Part shown: piece after piece, positions 4,434-26,348 of the stretch
How positions within the stretch are numbered: the first letter of the stretch is position 1
Layout of the letters: each line of letters begins with the position of its first letter
Assembly: GCA_021783995.1 (NCBI GenBank)
Contig: JAJXTH010000003.1
Location: 29,360-93,359 of the forward strand
Direction: 5' to 3'
From: Pseudomonadota bacterium
Lineage (GTDB): Bacteria > Pseudomonadota > Gammaproteobacteria > Burkholderiales > Gallionellaceae
Length of the DNA stretch: 64,000 bases
Position numbers and translations under genes: made by a program
The notes under the pieces: generated by a model
Seen by the model: the letters and a program-made list of their open reading frames with translations, nothing else
The model's database searches: none
What the model was told of the DNA's origin: nothing

Positions 4434-5525
4434 TCAGGTGTTTTGCACGACGATCTTGGGGAACACCGCACTGTGATCCTGCGCCATTTCGGCAACCTTG
4501 ACCGCGATGCGGCGCGCGATCTGCTTGTAGACGCGGGCTATGTTGCCGTCGGGATCGGCGATTACGGTCGGCGCACCGGAATCGGCCTGCTCGCGGATCC
4601 GTATGTCCAGCGGCAATCCGCCCAGGAATTCCGTGTCGTAGTCGGCGCACATCTTCTCTCCTCCGCCCGCGCCGAAGATATGCTCTTCATGGCCGCACTT
4701 CGAACAGATATGCGTGCTCATGTTCTCGACGATGCCGACGATCTTGATGCCCACCTTCTCGAACATCTTGAGCCCCTTGCGCGCATCCAGAAGCGCGATG
4801 TCCTGGGGTGTGGTCACGATCACAGCACCCGTCACGGGAACGTTCTGCGCGAGAGAAAGCTGTATATCCCCTGTGCCCGGCGGCAGATCCACCACCAGAT
4901 AATCCAGATTGTCCCACTTGGTCTGGCGCAGCAACTGATCCAGCGCCTGCGTGACCATGGGGCCGCGCCAGATCATCGGCTGATCTGCATCGACTAGAAA
5001 TCCGATGGACATCGCCTGCAGGCCGTGGCTCATCATGGGTAAAAGGCTCTTGCCGTCGTCCGATTCGGGCTGGCCTGCAATGCCCAGCATGGTGGGCTGA
5101 GAAGGGCCGTATATGTCCGCATCCAACACGCCCACACGCGCGCCTTCCGCTGCGAGCGCCAGCGCCAGATTCACGGCTGTCGTGCTCTTGCCCACGCCGC
5201 CCTTGCCGCTTGCGACCGCGATGATGTTCTTTACCCCATCGACCAACTTCACGCCGCGCTGCACCGCATGAGGGACAACCTTGCTCGACACGCTGGCGCT
5301 CACCTTGCCAACTCCGGGAAGGCTGGATTTGATGTGCGACTCGACCATCTCCCTGATCTCGTTCCACACGCTCTTTGCTGGATAGCCAAGCTGGATTTCA
5401 AGAGACACGTCGCTGCCAGTGACCTTGACATTCTTCACGGATTTTCCGCTGACGAAATCCTTTTTTGTATTCGGATCGATCAGGGACTTCAACGCATTCT
5501 GCACATCATTTTCATTCAGACTCAT
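4434..5525 (-). CDS. apbC: Mrp/ApbC-type P-loop iron-sulfur cluster carrier
   Basis: ATP-dependent Fe-S cluster carrier of the Mrp/NBP35 family that helps deliver clusters to apoproteins in the cytoplasm. The 363-aa protein has an N-terminal DUF59/MIP18-like domain (about 5-85) and a deviant Walker A SGKGGVGKST (106-115). It also has a YGPSQPTMLG motif, the DLPPGTGD switch (213-220), and the cluster-binding Cys274-x-x-Cys277 (CSKC). GGAG lies upstream of the ATG. It stands alone between petA and the gene ending at 5618. An Fe-S carrier suits a neighbourhood full of Fe-S proteins, but the family is universal. Confidence 0.93.
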   Translation of the reverse strand: MSLNENDVQNALKSLIDPNTKKDFVSGKSVKNVKVTGSDVSLEIQLGYPAKSVWNEIREMVESHIKSSLPGVGKVSASVSSKVVPHAVQRGVKLVDGVKNIIAVASGKGGVGKSTTAVNLALALAAEGARVGVLDADIYGPSQPTMLGIAGQPESDDGKSLLPMMSHGLQAMSIGFLVDADQPMIWRGPMVTQALDQLLRQTKWDNLDYLVVDLPPGTGDIQLSLAQNVPVTGAVIVTTPQDIALLDARKGLKMFEKVGIKIVGIVENMSTHICSKCGHEEHIFGAGGGEKMCADYDTEFLGGLPLDIRIREQADSGAPTVIADPDGNIARVYKQIARRIAVKVAEMAQDHSAVFPKIVVQNT

Positions 5526-8130: not shown

Positions 8131-9618
8131 TTAAGTCATCAGACTGATCGAAACACGCGTCCTGGGCAAGCCCAGATCCTGAAAAAACTGTTCGGCAACC
8201 CGCACCGCCGCTTGGGGCCCCGCAAGATACACATCGCCTTCCAGCAATTCTGCATCATTTTCGGCGATGCCGCAGAGCTGTTTCATGAGGCGCTCTTCCC
8301 TGTTGGCCGTCATCGCACGCAAATCGAAACCTGCGACATGTTCCGCATGATGAAAGTTGTCCAGCGCATCTGCCCATGCCCGCACCACGTTGGGCATGTA
8401 AATGTTTTCCCTGGAAGATGCGATCCAGTGCAGGCGTATGAATTCTGCATTCAACGACATCGCATGTTCGATCACGCTCTTGATCGGCGCGAAGCCATCG
8501 TCAAACGCAAAGAAGTACAACGCGCGCGGTGATCTCTCATGCAGGATGAACTCTCCTTGCGGCCCTTCGATCTCGACTGACTCGCGAGCCTTCAGGCGGT
8601 CGAAGACATAATCCGAAAAGAGATTGCCGCTCTGGAGGCGCACATGAAACAGCACATTTCGATCGTCACAGGGACAGCTGGCAATGGGCAATTCGGCGCT
8701 GTAGGCCTGCCCTACCCTGAGCGTCACGCTCTGCCCTGCAAGAAAACGCAGGCGCTGGGTGCGCGGCGTCTGCAGATGTAGCAGCAGTATGTCGGCCGCA
8801 AGCGGTTCGACAGATTTCACTGTAGCATCAATTTGCTGGTAGGGAATGTCCTGCACGCTGCCGGCAACCGTGGCTTCCAAGGTGACATCGCTCACCGCGG
8901 TGTTGCTGCAAAGCAGGATGCAGCCCTGGCTCTTCTCGGCTTCTGTTAGCACATAGTCGTGGTGGCGCGTCTTCTTGACCTGACCCGAGATCACGCGCGC
9001 CTTGCAAAGACCGCAGTTGCCCCCACTGCAGCCGTAGTTGAGCGGAATGCCGGCAGACATCGCCGCCTCGAGCAGGGTGTCCTGCCCCTCAAGCAGAAAA
9101 TCGTGGCCGCTGGGCTGCACGGTCACATGCGCTGCCATCACGCGCAGCATGTTGTCCTTGATTGCCAGGAGATTGCTCAAACCCGGCTCCATCGCTGATT
9201 CCGCTTCATGCCTTATCCATAATCTGAGATCGCTCACCGCCTGCTGCGATGCCGCATCGCATTGCGTCTCGTCCAGCTTCTTCAACAACCTGTTGAGCAA
9301 GTTCTTCAAATTCTCCAGCATAGCCTGGCTTCGATCCAGCGTCTTGCTGAGTTCCGTCACCCTAGCTGCCAGTACTTCCGCATCGGGCAGTGCACGTTCG
9401 AATATGCGCTTGCCAAAAGCCTGCTCCTTGATGCGGGAAATCCGCTGGATTTCCACGGTATCCTCGATCTCCGCATCCGGATAGCAGGCCAGCAGATCAT
9501 CTACATCCACCATCCCGTCATGTGCATCGAGTTCGCCTGACTGTATCTTCTTCTGCAGCACAACGCGGTTCACACCGACCAGCCTTGCCGCTCTTGTCAG
9601 ACTCAGAAGCTTACTCAT
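8131..9618 (-). CDS. HTH / coiled-coil / 2Fe-2S ferredoxin / FNR-like fusion protein
   Basis: A 495-aa four-part protein. Residues 1-50 look like a MerR- or excisionase-type helix-turn-helix (LTRAARLVGVNRVVLQKKI). Residues 75-120 form a probable coiled coil. Residues 165-250 are a plant-type ferredoxin domain with Cys197, Cys202, Cys205 and Cys237. Residues 255-495 have the layout of a ferredoxin-NAD(P)H reductase module. In that module the usual Arg-x-Tyr/Phe-Ser flavin motif reads AELPIAS, and the glycine-rich GGTGxAPxxS motif reads FDDGFAPIKS, so FAD and NAD binding may be impaired. It lies between cysG (38 bp) and the CDGSH gene (8 bp). A redox-sensing or electron-relay role is inference. 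Confidence 0.85.
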   Translation of the reverse strand: MSKLLSLTRAARLVGVNRVVLQKKIQSGELDAHDGMVDVDDLLACYPDAEIEDTVEIQRISRIKEQAFGKRIFERALPDAEVLAARVTELSKTLDRSQAMLENLKNLLNRLLKKLDETQCDAASQQAVSDLRLWIRHEAESAMEPGLSNLLAIKDNMLRVMAAHVTVQPSGHDFLLEGQDTLLEAAMSAGIPLNYGCSGGNCGLCKARVISGQVKKTRHHDYVLTEAEKSQGCILLCSNTAVSDVTLEATVAGSVQDIPYQQIDATVKSVEPLAADILLLHLQTPRTQRLRFLAGQSVTLRVGQAYSAELPIASCPCDDRNVLFHVRLQSGNLFSDYVFDRLKARESVEIEGPQGEFILHERSPRALYFFAFDDGFAPIKSVIEHAMSLNAEFIRLHWIASSRENIYMPNVVRAWADALDNFHHAEHVAGFDLRAMTANREERLMKQLCGIAENDAELLEGDVYLAGPQAAVRVAEQFFQDLGLPRTRVSISLMT

Positions 9619-19042: not shown

Positions 19043-19378
19043 TCAGATGCAACCTGTTGGCTTAGGAAGACCTGCGATCTTGCATGCCTGCTTGCCTGGT
19101 CCATAGGGGAACAGACCATACAGATATTCGCTGGTGCCTTTCTCGGGTCCGAGCTTCTTGCCGATCGCCTTGGTGAGCACGCGCACAGCGGGCGCAATCT
19201 GATATTCCTCGAAATACTCGCGCAGGAAGTTGATCACTTCCCAGTGCTGATCTGTCATCTCGATGTTTTCAGACTGTGCCAGATAATTCCCAACCTCGGG
19301 ATTCCATTCAGCCAAATCGACCAGATAACCTTCCTCGTCGGTCTCGTAGGACTTGCCATTTACTTCGATGCTCGCCAT
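19043..19378 (-). CDS. dsrC: DsrC, sulfur-carrier protein with both redox cysteines
   Basis: Small (111 aa) sulfur carrier that brings persulfide sulfur to DsrAB and receives it from DsrEFH/TusA. The C-terminal arm QACKIAGLPKPTGCI has both functional cysteines, Cys99 and the penultimate Cys110, so this is a true DsrC and not TusE or RspA. The N-terminal half matches the family (MTDQHWEVINFLREYFEEY). It lies between dsrH (26-bp gap) and dsrM. A cysteine-less paralogue is at 24024-24353. Confidence 0.97.
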   Translation of the reverse strand: MASIEVNGKSYETDEEGYLVDLAEWNPEVGNYLAQSENIEMTDQHWEVINFLREYFEEYQIAPAVRVLTKAIGKKLGPEKGTSEYLYGLFPYGPGKQACKIAGLPKPTGCI

Positions 19379-19713: not shown

Positions 19714-20079
19714 TTAGAAACTCAAGATCACGTCTTGCTCGTCCATCAGCGCGCCCACCTCTGCGCGTGTCAACACCGTGACATCCACCAGCAAATCATC
19801 TTCGGTCAATCCCCGCTCCGCAAGCGACTCCTGATCGACATACAGCTTCTCGATGTCATAGCCTTCAAGCGCGCGATATGTTGGCGAAAAATTCTTGGTT
19901 TCTATTCCCTTCGTCTGCTGACCCTTCTTCAGCTGATAAACGCCGTCATCGGTGAACATCAGCGACACGTCCTGATCAAAAGCCGCGGTGATCAGCACAA
20001 CCTCCAGGGACTCCAGCGCATAGATCGTGCCATAAGGGGCCTTTCGGTTGACGAACATGAATTTTTTAATATCACTCAT
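19714..20079 (-). CDS. dsrF: DsrF, sulfurtransferase subunit
   Basis: TusC/DsrF-type subunit of DsrEFH. It has the family fold pattern (MFVNRKAPYGTIYALESLEVVLI..FDQDVSLMFTDDGVYQL). I choose ATG 20079 (MSDIKKFMF, 121 aa), preceded by GGAG, over the frame's earlier start at 20094. No cysteine is present, as is common for DsrF. The gap to dsrE is 11 bp. Confidence 0.95.
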   Translation of the reverse strand: MSDIKKFMFVNRKAPYGTIYALESLEVVLITAAFDQDVSLMFTDDGVYQLKKGQQTKGIETKNFSPTYRALEGYDIEKLYVDQESLAERGLTEDDLLVDVTVLTRAEVGALMDEQDVILSF

Positions 20080-20090
20080 CCCGCTACTCC

Positions 20091-20450
20091 TCAATCGCCA
20101 AAAGTGACCAGACGGTCAGATTTGGTGCCCGCCTCAACCAACTGTCCCAAACCTGAAATGCGAAAGCCTGTTGCCAGATTTTCCTCCCTGATTCCACGGC
20201 GCAGCGCAGCCGCAACGCAGACAACCAGATCAACCTTGTGCTCCTCCGCAAGCTTGCTCCAGCGGTTGACGATATTCCTGTCATCCTGAGGCGGCTCAGT
20301 CAGCCTGGACGCATTGTTCACGCCATCGTGATAGAAGAATACGCGCCAAACCTCATGACCCGCCTCGATGGCGGCCTTGGCAAACAGGTAAGCAGAGTCG
20401 CTCGCCTGGCGCTGGTAAGGCCCCTCGTTGACAACTATTCCAAATTTCAT
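20091..20450 (-). CDS. dsrE: DsrE, catalytic sulfurtransferase subunit
   Basis: A 119-aa TusD/DsrE-type subunit of DsrEFH. The active persulfide-carrying cysteine is Cys78 (DLVVCVAAALRRG), the position known from Allochromatium DsrE. It follows dsrB by 13 bp and is the first of the dsrEFH trio that identifies the oxidative Dsr pathway. Confidence 0.97.
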   Translation of the reverse strand: MKFGIVVNEGPYQRQASDSAYLFAKAAIEAGHEVWRVFFYHDGVNNASRLTEPPQDDRNIVNRWSKLAEEHKVDLVVCVAAALRRGIREENLATGFRISGLGQLVEAGTKSDRLVTFGD

Positions 20451-20463
20451 GACCCAACCCTTA

Positions 20464-21558
20464 TCAGAAACGGATATGCGTGGAAGCGTTCAGGTTTGCA
20501 CGAGAGCCGCGCCAGTCGTCGATCAGGTACTTCGTGAACGGCAATCCGGTCTTCTCGAAGAAACGCGGCCAACCGATACGGTCTATCCAGTCAGCCAGAC
20601 GCTCCCAGGGGCGCGCATCTTCCTTGTAGACACCGAGGATGTTCTTCACCACCGCAGCGACTTCCGGCCAACGCGGCGCATTATTGGGCAGACCCGATGC
20701 CACCATCTTCATGAATGTCGGCTTGCCGCGCGCATTGGAGTTTTTCCCGCCCACCCAGATCGCGAGCTTGGAGTACTCAGGATCATTGATCTGCATCGGC
20801 GGACAGGGAGGATAGCAGGCGCCGCAGCACATGCACTTCGACTCGTCGATCTCAAGGGAAGGCTTGCCATTCACCATCGCCGGACGTATCGCAGCCACCG
20901 GGCAGCGCGCGACGACCGTTGGGCGCTCGCACACGTTGGCAACCAGATCGTGGTTGATCACCGGCGGCTTGGTATGCTGAACGATGATTGCAAGGTCGGC
21001 CTGACCGCCGCAGTTGATTTCGCAGCAGGATGTCGACAGATGCACGCGATTGGGCATTTCCTCGCGCCTGAATTCGTCATACAGCTCGTCCATCAGCGCC
21101 TTGACCACGCCGGATGCATCGGTGCCGGGGATGTCGCAATGCAGCCAACCCTGAGTGTGCGCAATCATGGTCACCGAGTTGCCGGTGCCACCCACAGGGA
21201 AGCCGTTTTTCTCCAGCTCAGCAATCAGCGGCGCAACCTTCTTCTCGTCGGACACCATGAACTCGATGTTCGAACGTATCGTGAAGCGCACGCGGCTTTC
21301 AGCGTAATCATCCGCAATCTTGCACAGCTTGCGTATCGTGTGCACGTCCATCTGGCGCTGTGTGCCGGCACGCACCGTCCAGATTTCGTCGCCGCTGTGC
21401 GCTACATGATGCAGAACGCCGGGACGGGGACGGTCATGATACTTCCAGTTGCCGTAGTTCTTCTCCATCAAGGGATGAAGATACTGCTTGTTCTCCGGCA
21501 CGCCCGTCTCTTTGGGCTTGCGTTTTGCTGCTGGCTTTTCCGCTACAACTTGATTCAT
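20464..21558 (-). CDS. dsrB: reverse-type dissimilatory sulfite reductase, beta subunit
   Basis: DsrB carries the catalytic siroheme in the DsrA2B2 enzyme, which here should run oxidatively (sulfane sulfur to sulfite) because dsrEFH and dsrL are present. Siroheme-[4Fe-4S] cysteines appear around Cys141 and in STSCCEINCGG (178-183). The inserted ferredoxin domain shows CMCCGACYPPCP. AGGAG lies upstream of the ATG. Length 364 aa. It follows dsrA by 11 bp. Confidence 0.98.
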   Translation of the reverse strand: MNQVVAEKPAAKRKPKETGVPENKQYLHPLMEKNYGNWKYHDRPRPGVLHHVAHSGDEIWTVRAGTQRQMDVHTIRKLCKIADDYAESRVRFTIRSNIEFMVSDEKKVAPLIAELEKNGFPVGGTGNSVTMIAHTQGWLHCDIPGTDASGVVKALMDELYDEFRREEMPNRVHLSTSCCEINCGGQADLAIIVQHTKPPVINHDLVANVCERPTVVARCPVAAIRPAMVNGKPSLEIDESKCMCCGACYPPCPPMQINDPEYSKLAIWVGGKNSNARGKPTFMKMVASGLPNNAPRWPEVAAVVKNILGVYKEDARPWERLADWIDRIGWPRFFEKTGLPFTKYLIDDWRGSRANLNASTHIRF

Positions 21559-21569
21559 CGTCTTTCTCC

Positions 21570-22865
21570 TCAGGCAGCTTGTTTCTTGGCATTGATCTTG
21601 GCAACTTCCTCGTCCCAGCCATCGGTGCGGACATAAGGATTCATGCGCGGCGAATTGATCATGGAAGGATCGACATCGATTTCCATCGCATCCAGGAAAT
21701 TGGTCAGGCCGATGCGCTCGATCATCTCACCGGTGCGCTCGTGCTCAAGCGCATTTTCCGCAAAGAAGTCTATGGTGCGCTGCGCGAAGTCCACCAGCTT
21801 CTCCACCGCCTCTTCACTATCCAGCTTCATGAAAGGTATGACCACCGTGCCCATCAGACCGCCGATCTTGAGATGACTCTTTCCACCCACCAGTATGGTC
21901 GCACCCTTGTCATTTCCGGGAGCCAAAGCGCCCGTCATCACGTTGATGCAGTGCATGCAGCGCACGCAGTCCTGATTGTTGATTTCGATCGCATGCGTAT
22001 CACTCACCGCCACGCTGGAAATGTGTTCACCGGACTTGATCTTGGAGATTTCCTTGACCTGGAAAGTCTTGGTCGGGCAGCGCGCGACGACATCGTTCAC
22101 CAGCTCATCCATGCCATGCTTTGCGAACCACTTCTTGGCAAGCGCCTCATCGGTGCGCATATTGTCGCGCCATGTGCCAATCACCGCCATGTCTGCGCGC
22201 TGAACAGAGTTCATGCAGTCGTTGGGGCAGCCGGAGAACTTGAATTTGAATTTGTAAGGAAGGGAAGGACGGTGGATGTCGTCGAGGAAGGTGTTGATCA
22301 CTGCGCGATGCGCTCTCGCTTCATCATAGCAGGACTGCTCGCAACGCGCCGCACCCACACAGGACATCGAGGTGCGCACAGCAGGACCCGCGCCGCCCAG
22401 ATCGAAGCCCAGCTCATTGATTTCATCGAACGCAGGCTGGACGTTTTCCGTCGTTGCGCCCTGGAACATGATGTCGCCGGACTGACCATGGAAAGCAATC
22501 AGGCCGGAACCGTGCTTTTCCCAGATGTCGCAGAACTTGCGCAGAATGTCGGTGTCGTAGTGCATGCCTGCCGGAGGCATCACGCGTAGCGTATGAAACT
22601 CTGCCGCATCCTTGTATTTTGCCTCGCCATTCTCGTCTTTCAGCTCGGTAAATCGTGGGATCACACCACCGCCATAGCCGAACACGCCGACCGTGCCGCC
22701 CTTCCAGTAACCCTTCTTGGTCTCATAGGAAGCCTCCAGCTGCCCCAACAGATCGACAGCCATGTCGTTGTTCTTTGCCAGATCCTTGAGACCCGTCACA
22801 AAACTGGGCCATGGGCCGGACTCGAGTTGATCGAGATGGGGAGTGTCATATAGTTTCTTTGCCAT
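21570..22865 (-). CDS. dsrA: reverse-type dissimilatory sulfite reductase, alpha subunit
   Basis: First gene of the dsr operon. Siroheme-[4Fe-4S] ligands Cys169/Cys175 (SCVGAARCEQ) and Cys213/Cys217 (GCPNDCMNS) are present. The ferredoxin domain has a cysteine in ARCPTKTF and Cys300-303-306 (CVRCMHC). At 431 aa it has normal length. It starts MAKKLYDTPHLDQLESGPWPSF with GAAAGGAAAA upstream. The 303-bp space to the divergent gene at 23169 holds the promoters and several inverted and direct repeats. Confidence 0.98.
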   Translation of the reverse strand: MAKKLYDTPHLDQLESGPWPSFVTGLKDLAKNNDMAVDLLGQLEASYETKKGYWKGGTVGVFGYGGGVIPRFTELKDENGEAKYKDAAEFHTLRVMPPAGMHYDTDILRKFCDIWEKHGSGLIAFHGQSGDIMFQGATTENVQPAFDEINELGFDLGGAGPAVRTSMSCVGAARCEQSCYDEARAHRAVINTFLDDIHRPSLPYKFKFKFSGCPNDCMNSVQRADMAVIGTWRDNMRTDEALAKKWFAKHGMDELVNDVVARCPTKTFQVKEISKIKSGEHISSVAVSDTHAIEINNQDCVRCMHCINVMTGALAPGNDKGATILVGGKSHLKIGGLMGTVVIPFMKLDSEEAVEKLVDFAQRTIDFFAENALEHERTGEMIERIGLTNFLDAMEIDVDPSMINSPRMNPYVRTDGWDEEVAKINAKKQAA

Positions 22866-22956: not shown

Positions 22957-23064
22957 CGATATTATTGTTCTTGACTCTGCCATCAGCTGGCACGCCATTT
23001 TTGTTTCAGGCATGTTACTTGCCTTCATAATGACAGAACATCACCCATTGCGGCTATCAAATAT

Positions 23065-23090
23065 AACCCTAACGGGTTGCTTCACCCGTT
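23065..23090. promoter_or_regulatory. inverted repeats, AACCC-N4-GGGTT and AACGGGT-N6-ACCCGTT, between dsrA and the divergent operon
   Basis: Two overlapping perfect inverted repeats share the middle half-site: AACCC (23065-23069) TAAC GGGTT (23074-23078), and AACGGGT (23071-23077) TGCTTC ACCCGTT (23084-23090). They lie about 95 bp before the gene at 23169 and 200 bp before dsrA. A close copy with the same 4-bp spacer occurs upstream of tusA (31057-31070), so an operator shared by sulfur genes is plausible. Confidence 0.45.
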
Positions 23091-23102
23091 CCGCAGTAGC
23101 AT

Positions 23103-23131
23103 TTCAAAAACCAGCCCTTAAAGGATATACT
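23103..23131 (+). promoter_or_regulatory. candidate sigma-70 promoter for the 23169-26348 operon
   Basis: TTCAAA (23103-23108), 17-bp spacer, TATACT (23126-23131). The -10 box matches consensus at 5 of 6 positions and the -35 at 4 of 6. It would start transcription about 30 bp before the first gene of the plus-strand operon, just downstream of the AACGGGT inverted repeat. Confidence 0.45.
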
Positions 23132-23168: not shown

Positions 23169-23384
23169 ATGGCGCAAATTGAGGAATTAGCAAAATTCAA
23201 AATTCCACTGGGAAACCAGGAAATCGAGCTGCAGCAAATCGATCATGTCGAAGGCGGAATGAGCATGATGCGCATCCGCATACGCGAGGCACGGCGATTC
23301 ACAATTTTCGACGTCGATCCGCATACGGCAAAGCTGTGGGCAAAGGTCATGAACGAATGGGCGGATGCCCAGGAGCAAGGCTGA
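23169..23384 (+). CDS. unknown 71-aa protein, first gene of the operon divergent from dsrA
   Basis: Small soluble protein (MAQIEELAKFKIPLG...) with alternating beta-like stretches (MSMMRIRIREARRFTIFDVD) and a helical end (TAKLWAKVMNEWADAQEQG). It has no cysteine, so it is not itself a sulfur carrier or metal protein. I do not recognise a function. Its TGA overlaps the ATG of the Cas6-like gene by one base, a sign of translational coupling and real coding status. Confidence 0.75.
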   Translation: MAQIEELAKFKIPLGNQEIELQQIDHVEGGMSMMRIRIREARRFTIFDVDPHTAKLWAKVMNEWADAQEQG

Positions 23385-23980
23385 TGGACATCGCACTGAT
23401 GACAGACGCAGTGTTCGATGTCAGCGGCGACACCATACCCCCGATTTACCAGTTTGCACTATGGGATGCACTGGTGCATCATGTGCCCGAGCTCGCAGAA
23501 GATCCGCTGACAGGCGTCGTGCCGTTGCGCACCTCTGCCAGCGAGGCGGGCATGCTGCTTGCCAAACGCAGCAAACTGGTGTTGCGGCTGACCGCATCCC
23601 ATACTGGGCATTTTGACCGTCTTGCCGGAAAGCGCCTGGAAATAGGAGGATCGGCTCTGCAATTGGGCCAGGGAAAGCTGCGCGAGATCCAGCCTTACCC
23701 CACGCTGCATTCTCACCTTGTGGGAAGCAACAAGGACGAGGTGGCGTTCCTGCAGGACGTGGCGGCAAGGCTGGCTGAGCTAGGCATCGGGGGCAAGCTG
23801 CTGTGCGGCATGCGCAACAGCCTGAAAGCTGCTGACAGGACCATACATGGCTATAGCCTCGTGATCCACGACCTCAAGCAGGAAGATTCGCTGCGCTTGC
23901 AGTACGCAGGACTGGGCGATGATCGCCGCTATGGCTGCGGCATTTTCATTCCCTACAAGTCCATCACCGATCTCGAGTGA
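23384..23980 (+). CDS. Cas6/Cmx6-like RAMP-fold protein without CRISPR context
   Basis: A 198-aa protein matching, from memory of the family, the type I-MYXAN Cas6/Cmx6 endoribonuclease pattern along its whole length. Visible are VSGDTIP (13-19) followed by ALWDALVHHVPEL, LAKRSKLVLRL (59-69), LAGKRLEIGG (80-89), PYPTLHSHLV (104-113) and the C-terminal glycine-rich GLGDDRRYGCGIFIPYK (176-192). Cas6 of this family usually has an Asp-His pair after the first motif; here the site reads PIYQF, so the expected catalytic His seems absent. No array or other cas gene is in the window. Start ATG 23384 follows GGAG. An RNA-binding role in sulfur metabolism is only a hypothesis. Confidence 0.75.
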   Translation: MDIALMTDAVFDVSGDTIPPIYQFALWDALVHHVPELAEDPLTGVVPLRTSASEAGMLLAKRSKLVLRLTASHTGHFDRLAGKRLEIGGSALQLGQGKLREIQPYPTLHSHLVGSNKDEVAFLQDVAARLAELGIGGKLLCGMRNSLKAADRTIHGYSLVIHDLKQEDSLRLQYAGLGDDRRYGCGIFIPYKSITDLE

Positions 23981-24023: not shown

Positions 24024-24353
24024 ATGGGATACATCATAGCAGGAGTCGAACTTGAAACAGACGCGGACGGTTATCTGCTCGAGGCGGATTTCAGCGAGGA
24101 AGCTGTGAACGTGATCGCCGCTGCAGAAGGCATGGAGCTGACCACCAGACACTGGGAAGTCATCAACTACATGCGCGAACAGTATCGCGAACACGGTGCC
24201 ACGCCCAACTTCCGCAACATGCTTAAGGGGATCAATGAATTCTGGCCCGAGGCGGACAGCAAGGCGCTTTACGACCTCTTCCCCATGGGACCTGCAAAAC
24301 AGGCAGCCAAAGTAGCCGGCCTGCCGCAACCTTATGGCAAGGGCGGGTACTGA
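24024..24353 (+). CDS. cysteine-less DsrC homologue (RspA type)
   Basis: A 109-aa DsrC/TusE-family protein: TRHWEVINYMREQYREHG and PAKQAAKVAGLPQPYGKGGY align with DsrC, but both redox cysteines are gone (the first is Ala95; the C-terminal one is replaced in KGGY). Proteins of this kind have been called RspA and are proposed to be regulatory, because they cannot carry sulfur. Start ATG 24024 has GGAG nearby; a longer frame from 23919 would overlap the Cas6-like gene. It has its own 43-bp gap after that gene. Confidence 0.88.
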   Translation: MGYIIAGVELETDADGYLLEADFSEEAVNVIAAAEGMELTTRHWEVINYMREQYREHGATPNFRNMLKGINEFWPEADSKALYDLFPMGPAKQAAKVAGLPQPYGKGGY

Positions 24354-24390: not shown

Positions 24391-24876
24391 ATGAGCCATC
24401 AAAATCTGCAAACCAATGTCACTCTGGATATGCGGGGCCTCTCCTGCCCTGCGCCGCTGCTCGGCGTCAAACGCATCATCAACGATCTTCAGCATGAACA
24501 GATCCTGATGCTGATGTCGGACTGCCCGGGCACCAGCGACGATCTCTTTGCCTGGTCTGAACAGACAGGCAACCAGGTCTTGAGAACCGAAGCGATCGCA
24601 GATGGCGGGACAGCCTATTACGTGAGAAAAGGCACCGGGGAATCGGTAAGAGCAAACGTCGTGCTCGACATACGCAACGTGGTCTGCCCAGGCCCCATCG
24701 TCGAGGCGAAGAAACTGCTGAACGGCATGGCCAGAAATGAAGTGCTGAAGCTGATCAGCAACTGCCCCGGCATCCATTCCGATATCGTCGACTGGGCCAC
24801 CGCCACCAATGTGACGATACTGGACACCTCGGAGATTGCGGCAGACGTCTATGCCTTCTTCCTGCAGAAGAGCTGA
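24391..24876 (+). CDS. tandem TusA-TusA sulfur-carrier protein
   Basis: A 161-aa protein made of two complete TusA (SirA-like) domains of about 80 residues. Domain 1 has LDMRGLSCPAP with the sulfur-carrying Cys19, and domain 2 has LDIRNVVCPGP with Cys99. Each domain also has a second cysteine in a matching place (DCPGT, Cys45; NCPGI, Cys125). TusA normally hands persulfide sulfur from rhodanese to DsrEFH. Two linked carriers could pass sulfur between domains or bind two partners. I take ATG 24391 (MSHQNLQTNV), with AGGA upstream. A single-domain tusA is at 30718-30945. Confidence 0.92.
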   Translation: MSHQNLQTNVTLDMRGLSCPAPLLGVKRIINDLQHEQILMLMSDCPGTSDDLFAWSEQTGNQVLRTEAIADGGTAYYVRKGTGESVRANVVLDIRNVVCPGPIVEAKKLLNGMARNEVLKLISNCPGIHSDIVDWATATNVTILDTSEIAADVYAFFLQKS

Positions 24877-24882
24877 CCCTGC

Positions 24883-25485
24883 ATGCGCATCAAGAGCAAC
24901 TGGTATCAATCCGGACGCGAGCACACCCCGCAGGAGCTCGCGGGTGCTGTCGCGTTCAACATATCGAGGATAGCCGAAAACGCGCTGAAGAATACCCGCA
25001 AGGCGGACTTCGAGATTGCCATCGGCCGTCAATATTTCGATTTTCTGCGCGAGTTCCTGGTGTTCCTGATACTGATCGCTGATCGGCTGGCCTACCGCCA
25101 GTTCAGCCATGAAGACCGCGTCCTGTTCACCGGTGCACTGGCCAACCACGTGGCTGCGACCTATGCGGAGAACGAAAGCCGGCTGATGGGACTCGAGCTC
25201 GCCTCATGCAAGCAGCAGTTCATCGACGCGCTGAATGCGCGCGCCGGCGAATATGCCGAGTTCGACTACACCGAAAGCGGCCCGGAGTATGCGTTCATGC
25301 GCTACCTTGCCTACTGCATGAGCCATATCATGGACGAGAAGGACAGCGGCTGGATCATAGACCAGATCATCAGCATCGAGGCGCCCAATGCGATCGACAT
25401 GCTGGAGAAAAACTTCAGCGGCCTCATCGACAGCAAGCCTGCAAAGGTCCGCCCCGCGAGAAAGAGTCCCGCGCCAGACGCATGA
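24883..25485 (+). CDS. unknown helical protein in the operon opposite dsrA
   Basis: A 200-aa, mainly helical protein (DFLREFLVFLILIADRLAYRQF; GPEYAFMRYLAYCMSHIMDEKD) with a disordered, basic C-terminal tail (KPAKVRPARKSPAPDA). There is one moderately hydrophobic stretch but no clear membrane anchor. Two cysteines (SCKQQF, YCMSH) show no metal-site spacing. I recognise no family. It starts 6 bp after the TusA-TusA gene and its stop overlaps the dioxygenase start (ATGA). Confidence 0.75.
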   Translation: MRIKSNWYQSGREHTPQELAGAVAFNISRIAENALKNTRKADFEIAIGRQYFDFLREFLVFLILIADRLAYRQFSHEDRVLFTGALANHVAATYAENESRLMGLELASCKQQFIDALNARAGEYAEFDYTESGPEYAFMRYLAYCMSHIMDEKDSGWIIDQIISIEAPNAIDMLEKNFSGLIDSKPAKVRPARKSPAPDA

Positions 25486-26348
25486 CAGATCCGTTTGATC
25501 TTGGGCAGAAAGATGCCTATCTAGCCTGGCGCGAACGAAAACTCGTGCAGGCAGCCACGCGCAGCGCCGATCTGGTTGTCGAAATAGGCGACCCACGCAA
25601 CCTCACCTGTGACGAGAAAAGCGCAATCGTTGCCCGCTGCAACCGGAGCAACATGGCAATCTATGTCTCGCGCACCCCGATCGACGAGAGCGGCCTGCAG
25701 CAGCTGGGGCTGCAGTTGGGGCTAGCGCGACTGGATGCAAACTGGCTGGCTGGCGAGGCCGGCATCACGCGCATCACCGTGTGCAGCAGCGAACCGCGCC
25801 AGACCTATATTCCCTATACCGACCGCGCGATCAAGTGGCATACCGACGGATATTACAATCCCGAGGACCGACGGATACGCGCGATGGTGCTGCATTGCGT
25901 CAGCGCCGCAGGAGAAGGCGGCATCAACCGCATCATGGACCATGAGATCGCCTATCTGATGCTGAGGGACATCGACCCCGATCACATACGCGCGTTATCG
26001 GCTAAAGATGCGATGACCATACCCGCACGCACAGATGAAGCAGGCATAGCACGCCCCCCACAGACCGGGCCCGTATTCTTCGTTGACCATAACGCGCTCT
26101 ATATGCGCTACACGGCGCGCACCCGCAGCATTGAATGGAAACAAGATCAGGCGACACTTGCGGCAGTTGCATCGCTCGAAGCATTGCTCGCATCCGATAC
26201 ACCGCACATCCACACCGTGAAGCTGGAAGCAGGCATGGGTCTGATCTGCAACAACGTGCTGCACGACAGGAGCGCCTTCACCGACGATCCTAATAACCCG
26301 CGTCTTCTATATCGTGCGCGCTATCTGGACCGAATGTCCTCACAATAA
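25482..26348 (+). CDS. TauD/TfdA-type Fe(II)/2-oxoglutarate dioxygenase-like protein
   Basis: A 288-aa protein with the double-stranded beta-helix iron site of the TauD family: His120 and Asp122 (KWHTDGYYNP), the distal His261 (NVLHDRSAF) and Arg278/Arg280 (LLYRARYLDR), one of which probably binds the 2-oxoglutarate carboxylate. TauD itself releases sulfite from taurine, so a sulfonate or other organosulfur substrate is one possibility; nothing in the sequence fixes it. ATG 25482 overlaps the upstream stop by 4 bp. It is the last gene of the operon. Confidence 0.85.
   Translation: MTDPFDLGQKDAYLAWRERKLVQAATRSADLVVEIGDPRNLTCDEKSAIVARCNRSNMAIYVSRTPIDESGLQQLGLQLGLARLDANWLAGEAGITRITVCSSEPRQTYIPYTDRAIKWHTDGYYNPEDRRIRAMVLHCVSAAGEGGINRIMDHEIAYLMLRDIDPDHIRALSAKDAMTIPARTDEAGIARPPQTGPVFFVDHNALYMRYTARTRSIEWKQDQATLAAVASLEALLASDTPHIHTVKLEAGMGLICNNVLHDRSAFTDDPNNPRLLYRARYLDRMSSQ

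Follow-up and report, generated by a model that had tools for sequence, protein, structure and literature searches.

What does a gene of the CRISPR-associated Cas6/Cmx6 family do in a sulfur-oxidation operon with no CRISPR system beside it? The question is raised by one open reading frame in the window, the whole 64-kb stretch of Gallionellaceae DNA analysed here, whose first codon overlaps the stop codon of the DUF6967 gene before it (ATGA). Its product is a member of the Cas6/Cmx6 family in all respects but its Asp-His site. The curated model TIGR02807 (cas6_cmx6) matches with 146.5 bits (9e-43; curated cut-off 98.85), aligning residues 7-190 of the protein with positions 4-197 of the 197-position profile, and PF09559 (5.9e-53; 180.1 bits against a cut-off of 26.7) and the PADLOC Cas6 profile (7.8e-54) likewise bear out the proposal of an earlier note, made from the sequence alone, that the 198-aa product follows the Cmx6 pattern from end to end. 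The GLGDDRRYGCGIFIPYK reported near the C-terminus is indeed in the translation, as is a C-terminal G-rich loop (GxGxxRxxGCGxF). A whole-genome profile search found this to be the single PF09559 gene of the window's genome.

Structure prediction, suggested in that note as a check for a RAMP/Cas6 fold, gave a confident answer in its favour. The AlphaFold2 model built from the window protein and 61 relatives has a mean pLDDT of 91 and a pTM of 0.85, its top Foldseek matches in the PDB are the Cas6 chains of a type I-B CAST Cascade (8fcu_B, TM 0.87; 8fcj_B, TM 0.86), and all 43 matches at E <= 0.001 are, judged by title, Cas6, Cse3, RAMP or Cascade chains. The model made for a relative from Thiothrix agrees with this (TM 0.79). 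The CAST Cas6 (8fcj/8fcu chain B), which belongs to Cascade, is the closest solved relative by sequence as well as by fold, being the sole convincing match in a PDB sequence search (1.8e-19), with 26-27% identity to the window protein in the structural alignment. Further sequence matches to caspase-1 (from 0.021), CasE (from 0.25), PSMD5 and a T-cell receptor chain were set aside as chance or too weak for use.

Table 1. Features of the dsr-linked cas6 locus, with two examples from relatives; dsrB is named by position, and rspA is the name that we assume for the gene of the Cys-less DsrC.
Feature	Coordinates	Strand	Basis
dsrC with C-terminal Cys	19043..19378	-	PF04358 8.7e-47
dsrF (DsrE/F family)	19714..20094	-	PF02635 3.1e-31
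dsrE	20091..20450	-	PF02635 4.8e-32
dsrB	20464..21558	-	same homology group as dsrA; position
dsrA, divergent from the cas6 operon	21570..22865	-	TIGR02064 4.0e-150 (own genome)
Conserved dsrA/cas6-operon intergenic element of the window's family, putative operator	23013..23108	-	holds AACCC-N4-GGGTT dyad
DUF6967 small protein, 71 aa, first operon gene	23169..23384	+	PF22295, 1.9e-30
dsr-linked Cas6/Cmx6-family protein, 198 aa	23384..23980	+	TIGR02807, PF09559, PADLOC Cas6, fold model
rspA, DsrC/TusE family without C-terminal Cys	24024..24353	+	PF04358 6.4e-32; TIGR03342 97.2 bits
Tandem TusA sulfurtransferase	24391..24876	+	PF01206, two stretches
Protein of no recognised family (working label 'torD-like'), conserved in this operon type	24883..25485	+	conservation
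TauD-like dioxygenase-family protein, dsrQ of the literature	25482..26348	+	PF02668 4.3e-19
~65-aa protein of relatives	L128 2936-3139; L234 7693-7917		L234 copy: no family above cut-off

The genes around cas6 are those of a Dsr system (Table 1). Sequence and family matches agree with the earlier identification of dsrAB, dsrEF, dsrC and a Cys-less DsrC next to it, and the description of the remainder of the operon as sulfur carriers is incomplete in that the DUF6967 protein, the TauD-like dsrQ and the 'torD-like' product are encoded there too, the last of which gave zero family matches above cut-off in profile searches. A passage of PMC10734462 reports oxidative-type DsrAB in Gallionellaceae. 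The section of PMC7596348 on dsrQ, after Lenk et al. 2012, gives this TauD-like gene as divergent from dsrA, so that an additional gene, of a dioxygenase family and thus unlike cas6, is already known where the cas6 operon of the window lies. No Cas6-like neighbour is mentioned in that section, and searching the paper for 'CRISPR' gave no match.

A comparison of genomes revealed that cas6 and dsrA go together. Among 369 genomes of the window's class, searched with PF09559 and with dsrA counted at E < 1e-25, 118 have PF09559 and 119 have dsrA; 111 have both, 7 cas6 only, 8 dsrA only and 243 neither, which amounts to an odds ratio of 482 (p 7e-75) for genomes that are phylogenetically non-independent. 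About nine-tenths of the dsrA carriers (111/119) thus also have PF09559, and the match is single in each class carrier except one (G264), where it comes in two pieces on one contig. The two genes share a contig in 84 of the 118 carriers, lying 570-4511 bp apart in 82 of these and divergent in all 82, while two carriers have a distant dsrA on the contig, 27 have it on another contig and seven are without a dsrA match. Contig edges account for seven of the eight dsrA-only and six of the seven cas6-only genomes: in the former the upstream side of dsrA is at a contig edge or within ~2 kb of one, and in the latter five contigs end ~0.4 kb or less from cas6/TauD (G067, G093, G127, G186, G317) and one genome (G318) has a dsrA fragment. 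Left over are G211, in which 12 kb upstream of dsrA lack cas6, and G299, with a different arrangement.

Linkage was likewise found in 330 genomes of the window's order, some of them, including the window's own, common to the class sample. Here 67 genomes have cas6 and 74 have dsrA, with none cas6-only and seven dsrA-only, and every one of the 67 carriers has the two genes divergent within 6 kb (median gap 603 bp). The expectation that orthologues always sit beside dsrAB therefore holds for 67/67 order carriers and for 82 of the 84 same-contig class pairs, but not for the two distant pairs; in the 27 carriers with dsrA on another contig the two genes may or may not be adjacent. Three genomes have neither gene, two of them from the window's genus and the third from elsewhere in its family. 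Five of the dsrA-only genomes of the order (G582, G642, G671, G449, G497) keep DUF6967 and other operon neighbours and are without cas6, for which loss is the simplest reading; of the other two, G487 has its locus at a contig edge and G510 has one dsrA at an edge and a second without recognised neighbours.

Beyond the class the picture changes. A phylum-level sample of 249 genomes (dsrA at E <= 1e-40) contains 50 with dsrA and three with PF09559, all three from the window's order, and none of the 47 dsrA genomes of other classes has PF09559. We took 20 loci from 18 of these 47: four (L232-L235), from four genomes, have dsrAB-dsrE-DsrC, with a Cys-bearing DsrC, and divergent TauD and DUF6967 without cas6, one of the others has dsrE only, and 15 have none of these genes except for one TauD. 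Since only L232-L235 are clear clusters, most of the 47 genomes are perhaps not of the oxidative type, and the four make the fair comparison. Many of the other-class dsrAB genomes behind the 20 loci (L230-L249), several of them with two copies, had no dsrE or DsrC detected nearby. Four other-class oxidative clusters and five genomes of the order are without cas6, and we therefore reject it as a universal or core Dsr component; organisms with a Dsr cluster and without cas6 exist, so the gene is not needed for Dsr chemistry and is an accessory of the system.

Gene order was compared in relatives. A scan with one peptide pattern, which is no census, yielded 203 relatives, and the best 80 of these are assigned to Gammaproteobacteria, to its groups or genera (Thiothrix, Thiohalobacter, Thiogranum, Thioploca, Thiomargarita, Cocleimonas, Sulfuricaulis) or just to Proteobacteria/Pseudomonadota, with one Candidatus Muproteobacteria and one unplaced bacterium; carriers include Thiothrix fructosivorans, Cocleimonas flava and Thiohalobacter thiocyanaticus. 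Loci of the best 80 of 203 have divergent dsrA/dsrB within 5 kb in 45 of the 53 whose flanks are long enough, TauD directly upstream in 59/67 and a Cys-less DsrC downstream in 60/72. In two further sets of 20 loci, partly overlapping with these and with each other, the counts are 15/18, 13/18 and 16/20 for the class sample, and 19/20 for dsrA, 15/17 for TauD on either side and 17/20 for rspA in the order sample. Orthologues thus usually lie beside rspA, as the proposed neighbourhood survey had anticipated, and queries from one I-MYXAN locus found no other Cas protein of that type in 180 fetched dsr-type loci. Two layouts can be distinguished, a gamma-type one (dsrA <- -> TauD - ~65-aa protein - (~230-aa protein) - cas6 - rspA) and that of the window's order (DUF6967 - cas6 - rspA - (TusA) - protein of unknown family - TauD). 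The ~65-aa conserved protein of the divergent operon occurs in 91 of 100 gamma-type loci and also in other-class loci, whereas the 21 loci from the window's order all lack it. The ~230-aa protein between TauD and cas6, present in 26 loci (e.g. L034 10444-11154), is at best weakly TPR-like and belongs to no known family. 'torD-like' matches lie several kb downstream in many gamma-type loci.

Conservation of individual residues bears on what the protein does. Counts were made over 162 rows, 154 dsr-type and the remainder CRISPR-linked, after rows with identical C-terminal stretches had been dropped; the CRISPR-linked comparison set consists of eight cyanobacterial plasmid proteins only, one of which (L103) is without other cas genes listed. 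The Asp-His pair that opens helix 1 near the N-terminus, which we take to be the catalytic His site of Cas6, reads IY in the window protein, and the earlier observation that PIYQF stands there is correct, most relatives having P-x-D-H. As a general statement, loss of the Asp-His does not stand, being confined to some lineages: His is kept in 143 of the 154 dsr-type rows. The site is DH in 7/7 CRISPR-linked rows covering it, DH (35) or EH (10) in 45 class rows, and DH (62), EH (2), HH (1) or NH (1) in 66 rows from the relatives scan, while the 43 order rows, window included, comprise 31 DH, one NH and eleven without His. Those eleven are six of the seven rows of the window's family (the window, L082, L084, L085, L086 and L087; L083 keeps its His) and five others. 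The CAST Cas6 of the solved structure has P-L-D-N, with Asn at the His position, so that the Asp-His is no strict family marker and its loss need not mean loss of function. The G-rich loop is kept, as are R68 (154/154) and Q173 (149/154) in the dsr-type rows, residues of types that presumably contact RNA in Cas6.

On this basis we give an even chance to the reading that a CRISPR-independent branch of Cas6/Cmx6 has become a stable accessory of the Dsr system, exapted as an RNA-binding and possibly RNA-cutting Dsr regulator. In the window's class, a branch of this RAMP family would have settled with the Dsr system as an accessory; judging from its fold, the protein would still bind RNA, the target probably being part of a Dsr-tied transcript, and Dsr expression would be adjusted post-transcriptionally, perhaps together with RspA. 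RNA binding is argued from the Cas6 fold and the conservation of the loop, and regulation rather than chemistry from the dsr linkage, the rspA neighbour and the dispensability of the gene. Because most lineages keep a Cas6-like His, RNA cutting is possible there, and because both Asp and His are gone in the window's lineage, binding without cutting is more likely there. RspA, whose gene is the usual downstream neighbour of dsr-linked cas6, is a DsrC-family protein and thus of a different, non-Cas6 family; DsrC-type proteins have regulatory roles and bind DNA, and we know of no tie of the RspA/DsrC family to RNA. More tentatively, and on the improbable side of even, a CRISPR RNA-processing enzyme may have been taken over by energy metabolism and fixed next to dsrAB in most dsr-bearing members of the class, an endonuclease or RNA-binding switch setting the output of the sulfur-oxidation operon and possibly reading the state of the sulfur carriers via RspA, with a binding-only form in the window's lineage.

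The likeliest alternative, though an unlikely one in our view, is that the Cas6 fold serves as a protein-binding scaffold or sulfur-relay partner of RspA, TusA or DsrC and handles no RNA. It would fit the conserved neighbourhood of cas6 with rspA, joined by a double TusA in some members of the window's order, the loss of the Asp-His in the window's family, and conserved positions not common to CRISPR-linked Cas6. The latter include R62 (154/154) and K192 (151/154) of the dsr-type rows, which the CRISPR-linked rows mostly lack (R62 in 2/8), and, in gamma-type rows additionally, W36, H46, H49, S60 and H191; the window protein has none of these five and keeps only R62 and K192 of the dsr-type-specific residues. 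Such residues may reflect a changed function. A scaffold is harder to reconcile with the retention, in almost every row, of the G-rich loop and the Arg and Gln positions of Cas6, and with a model that closely follows Cas6 structures.

An improbable alternative is that the protein serves an RNA-modification or tRNA-linked sulfur pathway, with a Tus/DsrE relay and the TauD-like oxygenase, instead of acting on dsr mRNA. TusA and TusE/DsrC families are known from the tRNA 2-thiouridine relay and are operon partners here, together with a dioxygenase family, which is what recommends the idea. TauD and DUF6967, however, accompany dsr clusters also without cas6 and are thus independent of it. DUF6967 itself turned up in 20 of the 21 loci from the window's order and in one of the 100 gamma-type loci; across 24 whole genomes searched it is present in 6/6 of the order, 4/4 of other classes and 0/14 of the rest of the class.

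The preferred reading, of a CRISPR-independent Dsr accessory, draws in part on the absence of CRISPR-Cas around these genes. The statement that 64 kb hold no array and no other cas gene was upheld by I-MYXAN queries and a simple array finder: seven proteins of the Gloeothece locus, used as single-sequence queries, matched cas6 only in the window, and the finder's only result in the window was a repeat of short period in its opening bases. Searched in the same manner, the 180 dsr-type loci (2-20 kb, partly on the same contigs) gave 180 matches, all to cas6, and neither in them nor in the window did these queries find cas3, cas8a1, devR/cas7, cas5, cas1/4 or cas2. The finder did detect arrays beside three CRISPR-linked loci (L184, L185, L189), and in dsr-type loci it returned three-copy repeats in L040 and L157 only and otherwise runs of N. 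By these searches, the dsr-linked cas6 is not part of a functional type I-MYXAN CRISPR-Cas system. Phage records had zero matches to one relative at E <= 0.01, and two plasmid records matched another relative; the first carries a full I-MYXAN locus, and the second lists no further cas genes. On a Gloeobacter morelensis plasmid (L103), a Cas6/Cmx6 gene has no other cas genes listed within 10 kb and lies near phosphoadenosine-phosphosulfate-reductase-family and DNA methyltransferase genes, a possible second CRISPR-free context.

Processing in trans of arrays elsewhere in the genome is accordingly very improbable, and we regard this role as largely refuted by Cas1 absence and dsrA linkage. In its favour, the proteins exceed the equivalog cut-off that NCBI sets for CRISPR Cas6/Cmx6, and Cas1 is present somewhere in 23 of 49 carriers, picked mainly for few contigs from 184 known carriers; in G239 Cas1 is ~22 kb from cas6 on the same contig. 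Against it, the other 26 of the 49 are Cas1-free, including 12 single-contig genomes and that of the window, for which a whole-genome search found no Cas1, and cas6 is linked to and co-inherited with dsrA, with no I-MYXAN partner found in the 180 loci.

Inheritance was assessed with pairwise distances: those of cas6 and dsrA correlate with r=0.85 (mirror-tree, 79 loci; Mantel p=0.001), those of cas6 and TauD with 0.38, and cas6 is mostly inherited vertically with dsrA. It is also under purifying selection, with dN/dS of 0.035-0.278 in 13 chosen pairs, in several of which dS is above 1 and near saturation, and of 0.21 for the window gene against a congener. The idea of a gene decaying after the loss of its CRISPR system, recommended by the Asp-His loss in the window's lineage, is refuted by this selection and by the distribution, with one gene per class carrier in a stable divergent order, and we give it practically no weight.

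How far the dsr-type proteins differ from CRISPR-linked ones can be gauged from type I-MYXAN Cas6/Cmx6, for example that of a Gloeothece citriformis plasmid. Both belong to the same curated family and share the G-rich loop, the Arg and the Gln, and in most dsr-type rows the His. The Gloeothece citriformis gene lies in a cas3-cas8a1-devR-cas5-cas4/1-cas2 locus, whereas dsr-type cas6 is without cas neighbours and linked to dsrAB. In a tree of 90 rows without outgroup, a branch with SH-aLRT 99 splits the 8 cyanobacterial plasmid proteins from 82 dsr-type proteins, which thus stand on the opposite side from I-MYXAN Cas6 with conserved residues of their own. TIGR02807 scores of six dsr-type proteins are 104-152 bits, compared with 172 and 255 for two CRISPR-linked proteins.

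The window protein and all six dsr-type relatives tested pass the NCBI TIGR02807 cut-off, and since this curated model names them CRISPR-associated Cas6/Cmx6, dsr-linked cas6 genes are likely annotated as immunity genes, even in organisms possibly without any CRISPR, while the data tie them to dsrAB. Lone PF09559 genes should accordingly not be counted as CRISPR. Among the open-access literature matches listed, a scope outside which subscription journals and preprints fall, no description of a Cas6 linked to dsr was found; PF09559, TIGR02807, DUF6967 and PF22295 are not mentioned in the open-access literature searched, and 'Cmx6' occurs in unrelated papers only. A Cas6-family gene fixed beside dsrAB without CRISPR suggests that bacterial sulfur metabolism has a partner so far overlooked, one that probably handles RNA. 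If it does so, lithotrophic sulfur oxidation would have a regulator acting at the level of RNA, and metabolism would have domesticated a Cas protein.

Folding, Rfam and consensus folding gave no candidate target RNA for cas6. Local folding z-scores over 77 intergenic regions had no consistent position for a structured RNA upstream of dsrA, Rfam gave two matches on positions 10000-40000 of the window, both far below their gathering scores, and consensus folding in sliding windows, done for five groups, produced gap artefacts and terminator-like hairpins, each group having 16-21 windows at z < -3. What the region between dsrA and the cas6 operon does contain is a CCC-N4-GGG dyad, AACCC-N4-GGGTT within 23063-23080 of the window, with 56 sites in 42 of the 77 regions compared with 15.4 +/- 3.6 in shuffles. 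Its commonest form is TATCCC-N4-GGGATA, and in some regions it is accompanied by a second dyad at a distance of 32-33 bp. In L087, from a relative in the window's family in which several kb separate the dsr operon from the cas6 operon, copies of the conserved element lie at 4891-4961 and 9307-9392. Because of the second dyad and of the element at both split operons, we judged a DNA operator the better reading and set aside a Cas6 RNA hairpin; the dyad is probably the operator of a dsr regulator. With one mismatch allowed, TATCCC-N4-GGGATA occurs 2-8 times per genome in 15 genomes (reversed-pattern control 0-4), the window's own genome having four sites against three control sites and none at its own dsr promoter. 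Five of the eight exact matches listed lie directly upstream of dsrA.
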